Source: a bacterium
Lineage (GTDB): Bacteria; Bacillota; Clostridia; UBA1381
Direction of reading: 5' to 3'
Length of the DNA: 32,648 nucleotides
Assembly: GCA_030536655.1 (NCBI GenBank)
Contig: JAUNPN010000020.1
Location: 1-32,648, forward strand
Shown here: positions 588-30,183 of the stretch, one piece after another
How the letters are laid out: each line of letters begins with the position of its first letter
Position numbering within the stretch: position 1 is the first letter of the stretch
Notes under the pieces: model-generated
Databases searched by the model: none
Seen by the model: the letters and a program-made list of their open reading frames with translations, nothing else
Told to the model about the DNA's origin: nothing
Made by a program: the position numbers and the translations under genes

Positions 588-1703
588 ATGGATTACAATT
601 TAATTCTCGAAGAAATCACAGCCAAAGTAAAGGCAGAGGCAAAGCGGCTAGGAACAGCCATCCCTTATATTCCGGCGGAGGATGGCAGGTACAGGGACGC
701 GGAAAGCATATACTGGTGGACGAACGGCTTCTGGGCGGGACTTCTATGGCAGCTTTATCACGCGACAGGCGAGGAACTCTTCCGCGCAGCCGCAGAAAGC
801 TCTGAAGAGCGGCTCGATGCAGCGTTAGACGGTTTTGAAAACATAGACCATGACGCAGGCTTTCTCTGGCTTCATACCTCAGGTGCGAATTACCGCCTGA
901 CCGGAAACAAGCGTTCGGAGCGCAGGACGCTTCATGCCGCCGCAACGCTTGCGGGACGATATAATCCGGAGCTTGAGATTATACGCGCATGGGACGGTCA
1001 GTGGATTAAGGGCTTCGACACAGCCGGCGCGGCAATCGTCGATACTCTGATGAATCTTCCGCTCCTCTACCTTGCATCAGAAATAACAAATGACCCGCGC
1101 TTTAAGAAAATCGCAATGCGCCATGCGGACACAATGCTCAAATACATGGTTCGTCCGGACGGTTCTTCAAATCATCAGATTGTGTTTGACATAAACACCG
1201 GGGAACTGATTGCCGAGCCGGGCGGACAGGGTTACGAAAGCGGTTCTTCATGGTCCCGCGGGCTGTCGTGGGCAGTATACGGCTATGCGCTTTCTTATCG
1301 TCACACAGGCAGGGAGCATTATCTTAACGTGGCTAAACGCTCTGCCGCATATTTCATGGCAAATACCGCTCTTACCGGCTATGTTCCGCTTGCGGACTTC
1401 CGCGCGCCGAAGGAACCGGTGTATTACGACACAACGGCAGGCGCTGCTGCCGCCTGCGGACTGCTTGAAATAGCCGGACATGTGAAAGAAAATGAAAAAG
1501 CTTTTTACATTGAAAGCGCGGAAAAGCTGCTTGAAGCGATGGACGAAAAATGGTGTGATTACAATCCCGAAACAGACGGAATCCTTAGCGGCGGCAGTGT
1601 GAGTTATCACGCCCCAAATCATCATGAAAAGATAATCTACGGGGATTATTTCTATACTGAGGCTGTTTTAAGATTTCTGCGCAAGGATTTTCTCATCTGG
1701 TAA
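588..1703 (+). CDS. GH88-type unsaturated glucuronyl hydrolase
   Basis: The 371-residue protein matches glycoside hydrolase family 88, enzymes that remove the unsaturated uronic acid left by polysaccharide lyases at the non-reducing end of glycosaminoglycan, gellan or xanthan fragments. The family acts by hydrating the C4-C5 double bond. An (alpha/alpha)6 barrel is suggested by repeated helical segments. The HDAGF motif with Asp89 and the VDTLMNLPLLY motif with Asp152 correspond to the two catalytic acids of Bacillus UGL (Asp88 and Asp149). No signal peptide is seen, so it should act in the cytoplasm on imported disaccharides. The length is normal for the family. Its ribosome binding site is weak (AGG), consistent with coupling to the gene 8 bases upstream. 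No lyase or PTS/ABC sugar gene lies nearby, so the natural glycan cannot be deduced. GH105 is a less likely alternative. Confidence 0.88.
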   Translation: MDYNLILEEITAKVKAEAKRLGTAIPYIPAEDGRYRDAESIYWWTNGFWAGLLWQLYHATGEELFRAAAESSEERLDAALDGFENIDHDAGFLWLHTSGANYRLTGNKRSERRTLHAAATLAGRYNPELEIIRAWDGQWIKGFDTAGAAIVDTLMNLPLLYLASEITNDPRFKKIAMRHADTMLKYMVRPDGSSNHQIVFDINTGELIAEPGGQGYESGSSWSRGLSWAVYGYALSYRHTGREHYLNVAKRSAAYFMANTALTGYVPLADFRAPKEPVYYDTTAGAAAACGLLEIAGHVKENEKAFYIESAEKLLEAMDEKWCDYNPETDGILSGGSVSYHAPNHHEKIIYGDYFYTEAVLRFLRKDFLIW

Positions 1704-1715
1704 AATTATAAAAAG

Positions 1716-1760
1716 AGGGTGTTACCGCAAAAACAATTCTGCTGTAACACCCTTTATATT
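1716..1760. terminator. Bidirectional intrinsic terminator
   Basis: A perfect 10-bp stem (AGGGTGTTAC, 1716-1725, pairing with 1744-1753) is followed by a T-rich tract on the plus strand and, read the other way, by CTCTTTTTAT. It lies between the convergent GH88 hydrolase and anti-sigma genes and can serve both. Confidence 0.85.
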
Positions 1761-1769
1761 TAGAACCTA

Positions 1770-1854
1770 TCTGTAAATTAAGCGCATTTTGCCTGCTGAT
1801 TTTCCGCCGTGTTGCCGGAAAATCCGACTTTGCAATATGCTCCTTAATTACAGA
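1770..1854. repeat. Long imperfect palindrome, MITE-like
   Basis: The outer arms TCTGTAAATTAAGCGCAT (1770-1787) and 1837-1854 pair with few mismatches. The inner arms ATTTTCCG (1799-1806) and CGGAAAAT (1816-1823) pair perfectly around a 9-base loop. The whole 85 bases can fold into one hairpin. It has no ORF and sits between a terminator and the 3' end of the anti-sigma gene. A small non-autonomous mobile element or REP-like sequence is likely, but no second copy is visible in the window. Confidence 0.6.
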
Positions 1855-1861
1855 CATTCTC

Positions 1862-3139
1862 TTAATCTGAAGGTATTATCACAAGTCTAAATGAAATACT
1901 GCCGTCAGATTCCTTTATATTTGCACTGTACCATATTCCTTCTCTGTCGAACTGCCCCAAAAGATTACGCATATCCACAGTATTTATCATATAATAGTTT
2001 TCGTAAACTCCGCTGACAAAAACGTCAACCAATTCCTGAACACGCGCCGCATCCTTTGACTTAATGGATACCATCGAGCTTAAAGGCGCATATGCGGTCA
2101 CATTGCTATTTGTATTATCCATTTCGCTGTACGCAATGGAATAATCAAGCGCGTCAAAATTTTCCTCTGACGGTTCTTCCGTTGCCGCCAGAGCAACATA
2201 TTCGTCCGGCACAGACCTTGCGCGTTCATCTATCGAATATGGGGCAGGCTCTGCCGCCCTCCCGATAATTTTCTCATCGTTTTTCTTGTCAGCCGGTGTT
2301 TGTTCCGGAACTGTTTCCGGCACTTCTGAATTCACGGAAGCCTTCTCTCCATCCGAATTCTTTGCCGCAGGCTGTGCATCGGTATTCGGTACAGGAGTCG
2401 AATCTGTCCTGATGTTCTCCGTTGCTGACGGTTGCGGCGCAGGCGAAGTCACAGGCAAATCCTTATTTCCGGCAGGTTCTGCACGGTTAGAAGATGCAGA
2501 TTCAGCCGCCGTATTGGTTTGTTTCCCCGAAGAAGCCTCTGAGCTGCGTTTTGCGGCAGACCCGGACTTTGAAGGAACCGCTGCAGGCGATGATAATGGT
2601 TTCGGCGTTTGTAATACGGGCGCATCGGTCGTTTTAACCGCTGCGTCCTTTTCATGCGCAGGCTGCGCACTGCCATTTAAGGCCTCCGGCTCTGCGGCTG
2701 CATGGTCATCAGCAGTTTCATGAGCCTCATCATCACGAATATCGGTTATTCTTTCTTCGGTTATAACACCGCTGCTGTCATTATTCATTTTAGACAGAAG
2801 CATATCCGCGTTCATACCCACACCGATAGTCAACACTGCGCAGGCTGCAATCGCGCCGTATCGGTAAACATACGGCTTTGAACGTCGGGCAAAACGCCTT
2901 ATCATTGATTCCCCGGCAAGCTCGGCGTCCAGCCGTGCATTGACGTTTTCAAGGAAATCACTTGGGGGGTCGATAGGAGGAAGGCTGTTAACCGTACCCA
3001 GAATTGAGCGCATAAATACCAAATCCGCATTACAGCCTTCACACATTTCCGCGTGCGTTTCAAGCTCCCGCATATCCGCATCGGTTAAATCCGCATAGTT
3101 ATCCAGCATCTGCGCAAACATATCGCAATTCACAGGCAT
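1862..3139 (-). CDS. Zinc-finger anti-sigma factor, membrane-anchored
   Basis: This 425-residue protein has the layout of an RsiW-like anti-sigma factor. The N-terminal ZAS zinc finger has Cys5, His29, Cys33 and Cys36 (HxxxCxxC). A single membrane segment lies at about 93-109. A very long Ala/Ser/Pro/Glu-rich low-complexity stretch follows at about 125-300, then a compact C-terminal domain of roughly 120 residues that I do not recognise. By family knowledge the cytoplasmic finger would hold the ECF sigma factor encoded just upstream (ending 101 bases away on the same strand), and the outer part would sense an envelope signal before proteolysis. An AGGAGG site precedes the ATG closely. The outer domain is much longer than in classical RsiW (about 200 residues in total). 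The partner is inferred from adjacency. Confidence 0.83.
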   Translation of the reverse strand: MPVNCDMFAQMLDNYADLTDADMRELETHAEMCEGCNADLVFMRSILGTVNSLPPIDPPSDFLENVNARLDAELAGESMIRRFARRSKPYVYRYGAIAACAVLTIGVGMNADMLLSKMNNDSSGVITEERITDIRDDEAHETADDHAAAEPEALNGSAQPAHEKDAAVKTTDAPVLQTPKPLSSPAAVPSKSGSAAKRSSEASSGKQTNTAAESASSNRAEPAGNKDLPVTSPAPQPSATENIRTDSTPVPNTDAQPAAKNSDGEKASVNSEVPETVPEQTPADKKNDEKIIGRAAEPAPYSIDERARSVPDEYVALAATEEPSEENFDALDYSIAYSEMDNTNSNVTAYAPLSSMVSIKSKDAARVQELVDVFVSGVYENYYMINTVDMRNLLGQFDREGIWYSANIKESDGSISFRLVIIPSD

Positions 3140-19747: not shown

Positions 19748-19813
19748 CGTAATGTTTCCTTTCATATTAGCTTTCTGTAAAGTGAAAAAGAAGCAAGCTT
19801 ATAACCTGAACTC

Positions 19814-19867
19814 CTTTCACCAATGCGTTTGGGGAAAGAGAAGCGGTGCTTATCTTTTTCCAAACTT
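19814..19867. repeat. Short form of a modular palindromic repeat
   Basis: CTTTCACCAATGCGTTTGGG begins the element. GTTTGGGGAAAGAGAAGC (19827-19844) pairs with GCTTATCTTTTTCCAAAC (19848-19865) around a 3-base loop. The same start and end modules recur at 29350-29470 with an inserted segment. It lies between the histidine phosphatase and purL, both on the minus strand. Confidence 0.75.
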
Positions 19868-27943: not shown

Positions 27944-29299
27944 TTATCCCAGTATATCCGCAACCGCGCGGCGGCAGATTGCAACCGCCTTATCAATCTC
28001 CGGCTTCTCTATAATAAGCGGAGGATTAAAATACAGCACATTGCCGAGCGGTCTTAAAATCAAGCCGTATCGGAGCGCCCTTTTGTAAATCTCATAGCCT
28101 ATACGCAGCCTGCTGTCAAAGCCCTGCTTTGTACGCTTGTCCTCCACAAGCTCTATCGCGTTAATCAAGCCTATATGGCGGATTTCACCGACATTTTTAT
28201 GAGAGAGCAAAGCCCTGTTAAGCTCCTCATGCAGATATACCGCATTCTTTCCCGCCGTTTCAAGAATATTATCCTCGCGGAGAATTTTCTGAACCGCAAG
28301 AGCCGCGCTGCATCCGAGCGGATTTCCGCTGTAGGTATGGCTGTGCATGAATGCTTTTCCCTCGTTGTAATCGGCATAAAACGCGTCATAAATCTTATCC
28401 GTTGTAACAGTAATTGCCATAGGCATATATCCGCCGGTCAAGCCCTTGGAAATGCACATAATATCGGGACTTACTCCGGCATGGTCAAAAGCGAACATTT
28501 TTCCGGTTCTTCCGAAGCCTGTCGCAATTTCGTCCGCAATAAGCAGCACCCCGTACTCATCGCACAATTTTCTCAGCTTTTTAAGATACAGCGGCGGATA
28601 AATTCTCATACCCGCACTGCCCTGAAGCAGCGGCTCAACTATTACAGCACAGACTTCGTCCGCGTGCCGCTCAAACTCCCTCTCCGCCTGCTCAAAGCAC
28701 TCGCACCGGCAGCAGTCACGGCATTGTCCGTAAGGACACCGGTAACAGTCCGGCGCCTCAATATGCACCGTATCCATCAGCATCGGCTTATATATCTTCG
28801 CGTACAAATCCATGCTTCCGACCGAAAGCGCGCCTATCGTTTCGCCGTGGTAGCCCTCAGTCAGGCACATGAACCTTTTGCGGCGCTCATTGCCCGTCTG
28901 ATACTGATACTGGAAAGCAAGCTTCAGCGCGCATTCAACCGCCGCCGAGCCGTTATCCGAAAAATTAAATTTTGTAAGCCCCTCCGGCACTGTTTCCGAA
29001 AGTTCCTCACAAAGACGTATCGCCGGTTCATGAGTAAAATTAGCGAAAATAACGTGTTCAAGTCTGTCAAGCTGAGCCTTTACAGCCGAACTTATTTTCG
29101 GATTGCAGTGACCGAGCAGATTGCACCACCACGAGCTTACAATATCGATATACTCTTTACCCTCCTTGTCGTAAAGGTAAACTCCGCTTCCATGGTCAAT
29201 GACAATCGGAGCAAGCTCCTCATAATCCTTCATCTGTGAACAGGGGTGCCAGATTTTTGCCAAATCCCGCTCCTGCCATTCCTTCATAGTAATTTCCAT
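27944..29299 (-). CDS. bioA: Adenosylmethionine-8-amino-7-oxononanoate aminotransferase
   Basis: The 451-residue PLP enzyme turns 7-keto-8-aminopelargonate into 7,8-diaminopelargonate, with S-adenosylmethionine as the usual amino donor. SSWWCNLLGHCNP near 55-68, NGSAAVECALKLA, IADEIATGFGRTGKMFA and the PLP Lys285 in SKGLTGGYMPMA are the class III signatures. Residues 185-201 form an insert with seven Cys (185, 188, 193, 196, 197, 199, 201). The open frame extends to 29425 through the palindromic repeat, but GAAAGGCGG before the ATG at 29299 and the family N-terminus fix the start. It is last in the operon, separated from bioD by the repeat. Confidence 0.95.
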   Translation of the reverse strand: MEITMKEWQERDLAKIWHPCSQMKDYEELAPIVIDHGSGVYLYDKEGKEYIDIVSSWWCNLLGHCNPKISSAVKAQLDRLEHVIFANFTHEPAIRLCEELSETVPEGLTKFNFSDNGSAAVECALKLAFQYQYQTGNERRKRFMCLTEGYHGETIGALSVGSMDLYAKIYKPMLMDTVHIEAPDCYRCPYGQCRDCCRCECFEQAEREFERHADEVCAVIVEPLLQGSAGMRIYPPLYLKKLRKLCDEYGVLLIADEIATGFGRTGKMFAFDHAGVSPDIMCISKGLTGGYMPMAITVTTDKIYDAFYADYNEGKAFMHSHTYSGNPLGCSAALAVQKILREDNILETAGKNAVYLHEELNRALLSHKNVGEIRHIGLINAIELVEDKRTKQGFDSRLRIGYEIYKRALRYGLILRPLGNVLYFNPPLIIEKPEIDKAVAICRRAVADILG

Positions 29300-29328
29300 A
29301 TTCAACCGCCTTTCCCGAATCCGCACTT

Positions 29329-29509
29329 TTTCAAACTTCCGAACCACTTTCACCAATGCGTTTGGGAAAAGAGAAGCAAGCAGGTTGCCGCTTTGAGGGG
29401 CGCAGTCGTACTCAATGTACTTCAAGCCCCGAAAGGCGGCAAGATGCGACGCTTATCTTTTTCCAAACTTCCGAAATGCTTTCACCAATGGCATTTGGGA
29501 ACAGAGAAG
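29329..29509. repeat. Long form of modular palindromic repeat with duplicated end
   Basis: A ~48-base unit (TTTTCAAACTTCCGAA...CTTTCACCAATG...TTTGGGAA..AGAGAAG) occurs at 29329-29376 and again at 29458-29509. Between them lies an 80-base segment whose arms TTGCCGCTTTGAGGGGC (29385-29401) and GCCCCGAAAGGCGGCAA (29426-29442) pair, with a small inner palindrome. The same left and right modules, without the segment, form the element at 19814-19867. It lies between bioA and bioD and overlaps the bioD 3' end. Confidence 0.8.
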
Positions 29510-30183
29510 TAAGCCTTCAAAACTTCCGCGTCAATATCCAGTTCCCTATCTCCGGCTTTCACCTCTGCAATTACCGGAATTTTTGTTATCTGCTCAATCA
29601 TAGCTTTATTGTCGCGGTGCATTTCACTCTCCGGGTCATAATTGTTCAATATAATCCCCCTCACCGCTATCCCGCGGCTTCGGATATACCCGCAGGTGGT
29701 TACAGCCGAATTAATCGTTCCCAAGCCTCCGTCCGCAACAACAAGCGTGTCAAGTCCGAGCAGCTTTATAATATCCTCCAGAAAGATTTTCTTTGTCCCA
29801 TCAAATCTTATCGGGCATACAATTCCGCCGCTGCCCTCGGCTGTCACAAAATCGTGCTTACCGCATACCGCTTTGAAATCCTCAAGCACCTTGTACTCCT
29901 CAACGGGATTGCCCTCGATACGCGCCGCGAGGTGCGGAGAAACCGCATTTTCATAGACGTAAGAAACCATGCTTTCAAGACTCTGATTAATCCCGGAAAC
30001 GCGTTTTACATAGTCCGCATCTCCCGGCACAAGCCTGCCGTCAATATACTCCGCACCGCTGAGCGCAGCCTTGTAATACCCGGCATTTATACCCGCGTCG
30101 TGCAGCTTTTTAACGATTAATGCCGTGACATAGGTTTTGCCTATATCCGTTCCCGTTGCCGTAATAAATATTCCTTTGCTCAT
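29482..30183 (-). CDS. bioD: Dethiobiotin synthetase
   Basis: The 233-residue P-loop enzyme closes the ureido ring of diaminopelargonate with CO2 and ATP to give dethiobiotin. ITATGTDIGKTYVTALI (7-23) carries the phosphate loop, YYKAALSG the conserved Lys region, and EGSGGIVCPI the substrate loop. The last residues, FSVPKCHW and the stop, are coded inside the palindromic repeat (29482-29509), so the natural C-terminus has been replaced by repeat sequence. The length still matches the family (about 225-235). It overlaps bioB by 4 bases (ATGA). Confidence 0.94.
   Translation of the reverse strand: MSKGIFITATGTDIGKTYVTALIVKKLHDAGINAGYYKAALSGAEYIDGRLVPGDADYVKRVSGINQSLESMVSYVYENAVSPHLAARIEGNPVEEYKVLEDFKAVCGKHDFVTAEGSGGIVCPIRFDGTKKIFLEDIIKLLGLDTLVVADGGLGTINSAVTTCGYIRSRGIAVRGIILNNYDPESEMHRDNKAMIEQITKIPVIAEVKAGDRELDIDAEVLKAYFSVPKCHW

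Follow-up and report, generated by a model that had tools for sequence, protein, structure and literature searches.

The window, by which we mean the whole stretch of 32,648 nucleotides analysed here, carries the biotin synthesis genes bioD and bioA on its minus strand, and between them lies a repeat whose core motif, expected 0.01 times in the window, occurs three times. The repeat is direct (29327-29369 and 29459-29501; 43-48 nt long, spacing 132, 79% identity), and the segment between its two copies folds into a long hairpin with an energy of -77.4 kcal/mol on the plus strand (z = -6.0), which none of 200 shuffles equalled. A duplicated unit around a hairpin between bioA and bioD had been described in an earlier note made from the sequence alone, and this duplication stands; the 48-base unit given there can be refined, the real unit being 69 or about 138 nt long when read on the minus strand. 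From bioD to bioA, the locus comprises the 3' half of a first unit, one complete long unit and a remnant of a third. The features, including the short copy found elsewhere in the window, are listed below, with the letters of the hairpin arms given for the plus strand and SD denoting a Shine-Dalgarno sequence.

29482-30183, minus strand: bioD, dethiobiotin synthetase (PF13500)
29482-29505, minus strand: last seven codons of bioD (SVPKCHW) and its stop, coded by the repeat
29471-29509, minus strand: 3' half of unit 1, joined to bioD; AAAGCATTT stands at the place of the lost SD
29339-29470, minus strand: unit 2, complete long form of 132 bp, a hairpin and a tail in which the SD is normally borne; 92% identical to an array on contig C222
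29451-29468, minus strand: outer hairpin arm GCTTATCTTTTTCCAAAC, from the fold
29378-29450, minus strand: optional inner hairpin insert, type A, missing from the 69-bp form; its inner stem pairs covary among types
29360-29377, minus strand: outer hairpin arm GTTTGGGAAAAGAGAAGC, paired in the fold with 29451-29468 with two mismatches
29326-29338, minus strand: AAGTTTGAAAAAG, 13 bp left over from a third unit's 5' end
27944-29299, minus strand: bioA, aminotransferase class III (PF00202), start near 29299
19799-19867, minus strand: short form of 69 bp without inner insert, with the same outer arms; 96% identical to the 74-nt consensus

Unit 2 is 132 bp long because its junction is 6 nt shorter, and since its SD position reads AAAGTGGTT, the AGGAG has been lost. 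The two mismatches of its outer arms recur in most copies. A third unit extending to the SD and ATG of bioA was considered and rejected, as homology beyond the 13-bp remnant does not reach significance, 152 of 2000 shuffles attaining its score. Close to the bioA ATG there is an SD-like sequence, AAAGGCGG, distinct from the lost SDs of units 1 and 2.

At its other end, the repeat supplies the last residues and the stop of bioD, as had been proposed: the BioD C-terminus reads ...LKAYFSVPKCHW, while the orthologue of a relative (G001) stops at residue 226 without the repeat-derived residues. The broader suggestion that the repeat changes protein ends and mRNA structure is thereby borne out for the end of BioD, and for mRNA structure the change is predicted by folding. 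In another relative, G006, the start of a bioB-like gene bears an intact element; this would seem to be a separate event in the biotin pathway.

An insert-less form had been placed near 19814 as a 54-base element; the copy with the same outer arms is the 69-bp unit at 19799-19867, whose neighbours, named from their sequences by eye, are a purL-like gene and one for a phosphoglycerate-mutase-like protein. Adjoining it on the minus strand, GCTTGCTTCTTTTTC (19780-19799) resembles the 3' arm of the long unit, and this site may be the remnant of an array too.

Copies and anatomy of the element

A search for further copies, which the earlier note had suggested as a check, was positive. The 179-bp segment from the bio locus gave 60 significant BLAST matches in its own genome (G000), and the 21-nt core gave 114 matches across the assembly at up to three mismatches, against 0 for the reversed control. 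About 100 of these loci were read with their flanks. The units have two discrete sizes, 69 nt and 137-139 nt, with outer modules common to both, and occur alone or in head-to-tail arrays. A unit on the minus strand consists of a hairpin with mismatches and, after it, GGTGAAAGGAG(TTCGGATTATAA); in full, the transcribed strand runs 5'-AAGTTTGGAAAAAGATAAGC-(insert)-GCTTCTCTTTTCCCAAACG-CATTGGTGAAAGGAGTTCGGATTATAA-3', and the arms on the AAGTTTGGAAAAAGATAAGC and GCTTCTCTTTTCCCAAACG sides pair into a long stem in which two mismatches are conserved. The inner insert forms a hairpin of its own, is about 69 nt long and exists in several sequence types. Its stem covaries: double-change cells number 90, where shuffles reach 51 at most, and pairing is 94.7% against 84.9%. 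Seven insert pairs carry double changes, a number reached by some shuffles, and because the changes follow a few subfamilies, the covariation reflects few independent events.

In a cousin family, found in G009 and, as related copies, in G010 and G023, the foot is changed on both sides (GTCTG/CAGAC) and the tail is GTGAAAGGAGTTAATGGTTATAA, again followed by NNATG. At the 5' end of the element (e.g. 29451-29470 in the window), a TTG (AAGTTTGG) stands at normal spacing after the native SD; the frame that it opens (MEKDKRR...) is short, ends at TGA in the long forms looked at, and possibly encodes a leader peptide.

Six contigs of the source genome (C25, C37, C58, C146, C170 and C203) end inside an element copy, and the copy number is a lower bound because the repeat fragments the assembly. 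On a further contig (G000:C141, L054 about 1470-3021), a copy cut in its insert adjoins excisionase-like and tyrosine-integrase genes, which looks like the integration site of a conjugative element.

Placement at start codons

The main feature of the family goes beyond the earlier note: intact copies lie exactly between the native SD and the start codon, and carry an SD of their own. In the source genome, an ATG stands at exactly +2 in 37 non-tandem copies, compared with 0 or 1 at most nearby offsets. About a third of the units (36/106) lie 1-3 nt before an open reading frame of at least 60 codons; the other two thirds are away from a start codon, mostly at tandem junctions (with GTTTG... abutting) or apparently decayed. 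AGGAG is found in 31 of the 36 units at reading-frame starts versus 31 of the remaining 70, a difference whose Fisher p of 3e-5 is indicative only, because the element copies are related.

The same position recurs in relatives. Among 34 core matches in G006, 27 have the start codon at exactly +2, two at +3 and two at -2, one (L102) is a deletion variant, and of the remaining two, one lies at a contig end and the other is spurious; the two copies at -2 and L102 have been shifted by small deletions. Nine copies in G009 are at exactly +2 and one lacks a start codon. Across the family, the start-anchored SD pattern was detected in 12 of 70 genomes, the control giving 0 in all of them. The DNA motif AANN[AG]TG does not account for this placement: in the stretches examined, and with crude gene calls, 357 such sites are non-coding versus 21 at called starts, about 17:1.

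The downstream genes have no common theme. They include nusB, folD, glyA, leuB, and genes for an adenosylmethionine decarboxylase, a response regulator and a uracil-DNA-glycosylase-like protein, among others; those behind the element in G009 are, by sequence, fabD, argF, sbcD, ldh and purC.

Native Shine-Dalgarno sequences and empty sites

Upstream of the unit, a native SD-like sequence is present in all 16 measurable copies of G006, where joining the flanks brings it to 5-8 nt from the ATG, and in 12 of 19 copies of the source genome, some of them inside arrays. Because shuffled flanks also yield SD-like strings, the SD count weighs less than the empty sites and the tightness of the spacing.

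Such empty sites were found at several orthologous genes. The element precedes dprA in both G000 and G006, with different insert types, while other family members have a plain SD-spacer-ATG arrangement there without it. Likewise, fabD, argF, purC, sbcD and ldh in sister species of G009 have no unit and a normal SD-spacer-ATG. The lengths of the joined G009 flank and of the empty site, counted by eye and compared between species rather than within one, are 8/8 nt for fabD, 8/8 for argF, 11/11 for purC, 6/7 for sbcD and 9/10 for ldh. They are thus equal in three of the five genes when the AA found at either end is counted a single time, and this match indicates that the insertion is precise, with a 2-bp AA duplication or none. 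Presence and absence at orthologous genes supports mobility. The idea of a mobile palindrome with an optional insert, put forward in the earlier note, is therefore upheld by the dispersed copies, their two sizes and their variable presence at orthologues.

Search for a mobilising enzyme

No mobilising enzyme was found for the element. The source genome has no IS110/bridge-RNA element and no match to PF01797 or a RAYT profile (the assembly is 98.35% complete, and a missing gene is possible), and G023 has no Y1 protein either. Several relatives, G006 and G009 among them, do have RAYT genes; the relatives' RAYTs adjoin GTAG-type palindromes of their own and not the element, which does not immediately flank the RAYT of G006. 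We therefore rejected mobilisation by a RAYT. Examples of this other association are the RAYT-like genes at L156 (2600-3400), L166 and L164, which adjoin GTAG-type palindromes such as TGTAGGGAACGACCTACGTGTCGTTCCG, with several repeats in L156; the published list of GTAG repeats (PMC3733652) covers only phyla other than that of these Clostridia.

Three further sources were considered. An autonomous copy split by a transposase was rejected, the truncated copies examined containing no transposase, and four scans of viral contigs returned 0 element copies. Retron reverse transcriptases are present in G006 and G009, but the regions upstream of them have no evident likeness to the element by eye, and they were rejected as well. 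These are single-gene retron-type enzymes (L280 2400-3544 and L279 2460-3602), directly preceded by a conserved, structured non-coding region that is likely an msr-msd. The only reverse transcriptase of G000 (L278 2296-4183, on G000:C122) is preceded by a gene for a small Avd-like protein and an A-rich repeat (AACAACAATAGTAACAATGCC...), and by eye this locus looks like a diversity-generating retroelement.

Proposed explanation

Dispersion in two sizes, exact placement, retained native SDs, empty orthologous sites and the preference for AGGAG at starts were all directly observed. We think it probable that the element is a small, non-autonomous mobile hairpin of 69 or about 138 bp that inserts between the SD and the start codon, bringing an SD to stand in for the native one. 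The preferred target of the family would be the translation initiation region. A new copy would land between the native SD and the start codon, two nucleotides before the ATG or GTG, and its 3' end would bring GAAAGGAG as the substitute SD, so that the host gene would still be translatable. Head-to-tail arrays would arise by insertion between AA and GTTTG, that is, at the 5' end of a resident element lying behind its native SD. Once a copy has no start codon left to serve, its SD would be lost and the copy would decay. The bioD-bioA locus would be such a decayed array, in which both SDs have gone and a deletion has fused bioD to one unit, with bioA now using another SD. We infer that the element transposes, duplicating 0 or 2 bp (AA) as it does so, and that its own SD is the one actually used.

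The aligned spacing from this SD to the ATG is 13 nt, longer than usual. In folding of the mRNA, the SD is predicted to be about 40-50% unpaired in most groups, and some copies have an alternative fold in which the hairpin arm CUCUUUUC pairs with it. On these models, translation of the host gene is likely altered, perhaps reduced.

That the target is the translation initiation region itself, with SD and start codon being recognised, possibly on the mRNA or through a nucleic-acid-guided enzyme, while the built-in SD keeps the host gene alive, is a more tentative proposal, to which we give somewhat less than even credence. We know of no description of such safe-site targeting of the translation initiation region for bacterial elements, and no published element between SD and start codon was found in the literature searched, a scope outside which most subscription journals fell.

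Alternative explanations

The exact position before start codons would also be expected of a cis-regulatory RNA, in which the arm CUCUUUUC alternatively pairs with the SD GAAAGGAG and switches translation across a riboswitch-like regulon; the covarying inner stems and the alternative fold of CUCUUUUC(CCAA) with (UUGG)UGAAAGGAG in some copies agree with this. Such a regulon is, however, at odds with downstream genes that lack a common theme, with orthologues in relatives that do without the element, and with near-identical copies before unrelated genes, from which recent spread follows. Moreover, the alternative pairing appears weaker by eye in the G009 cousin family, and the window has no Rfam match at the gathering threshold, only chance-level hits (E 0.27 and 4.1). 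We consider a regulatory RNA unlikely.

Mobility could instead be that of a REP/BIME or another IS200/IS605-type palindrome moved by a Y1 (RAYT) transposase, a class to which a palindrome with conserved mismatches would be suited. The flank sequence TTTCAWNN (plus orientation), which is target-like in that it resembles the element's own end, and the RAYT genes of several relatives fit as well. Against this are the absence of Y1 proteins from G000 and G023, the association of the relatives' RAYTs with palindromes other than the element, the lack of an element copy immediately flanking the RAYT of G006, and a foot without GTAG or CGTC tag, the 5' end being AAGTTTGG/AAGTCTG in the copies read; this origin is very unlikely in our estimation. 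We are just as sceptical of a MITE that belongs to a DDE transposon, duplicates 2 bp (AA/TT) and is concentrated at start codons by selection alone. The AA at both ends and the exact joined lengths are compatible with its duplication, but its ends are asymmetric, with a hairpin foot at one and an SD tail at the other, and the arms do not lie at both ends. Selection against other sites is also improbable as the sole cause, because the near-identical G006 copies are nearly all at starts despite the excess of non-coding AANN[AG]TG sites. Insertion between SD and start codon with a substitute SD remains the reading we prefer.

Comparison with known systems

Bacterial interspersed palindromes are usually viewed as intergenic clutter. 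The present family spans several genera and enters the most sensitive nucleotides of genes, core ones such as nusB, glyA, folD, fabD and purC among them, where the element appears to replace the ribosome-binding site of its host genes. If confirmed, this would be a natural, repeated swap of translation initiation signals, and it raises the question of how the element finds start codons. Such insertions would also be a route for the evolution of protein ends, as in BioD, and of 5' leaders.

Translation attenuators of the erm leader type have two alternative hairpins around the SD. The element resembles them in its alternative hairpins around the SD and in an upstream SD that could load ribosomes; it differs in that its leader peptide is only putative, no ligand is established and its copies are dispersed over unrelated genes. 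REP/GTAG palindromes, which go with RAYTs and are hypothesised to be miniature transposons, resemble the element in being short, imperfect, numerous and clustered (PMC3733652); the element, though, has 69/138-bp units that lack a GTAG tag and are sited at start codons, and its genome has no RAYT. CGTC repeats and Rickettsia palindromic elements likewise have no dedicated transposase, and some lie inside genes (PMC3733652); the element, by contrast, has no CGTC tag, its regular site is the 5' untranslated region, and the protein change in bioD is a by-product. For BOX elements of Streptococcus pneumoniae, we found neither placement between SD and start codon nor a supplied SD in the account consulted (PMC3049150). 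Like the element, they are modular, hairpin-forming and multi-copy, have a variable inner module and can contribute the ends of reading frames (PMC3049150). Going by these descriptions, BOX is the closest known system in kind, the element too being modular, multi-copy and intergenic.
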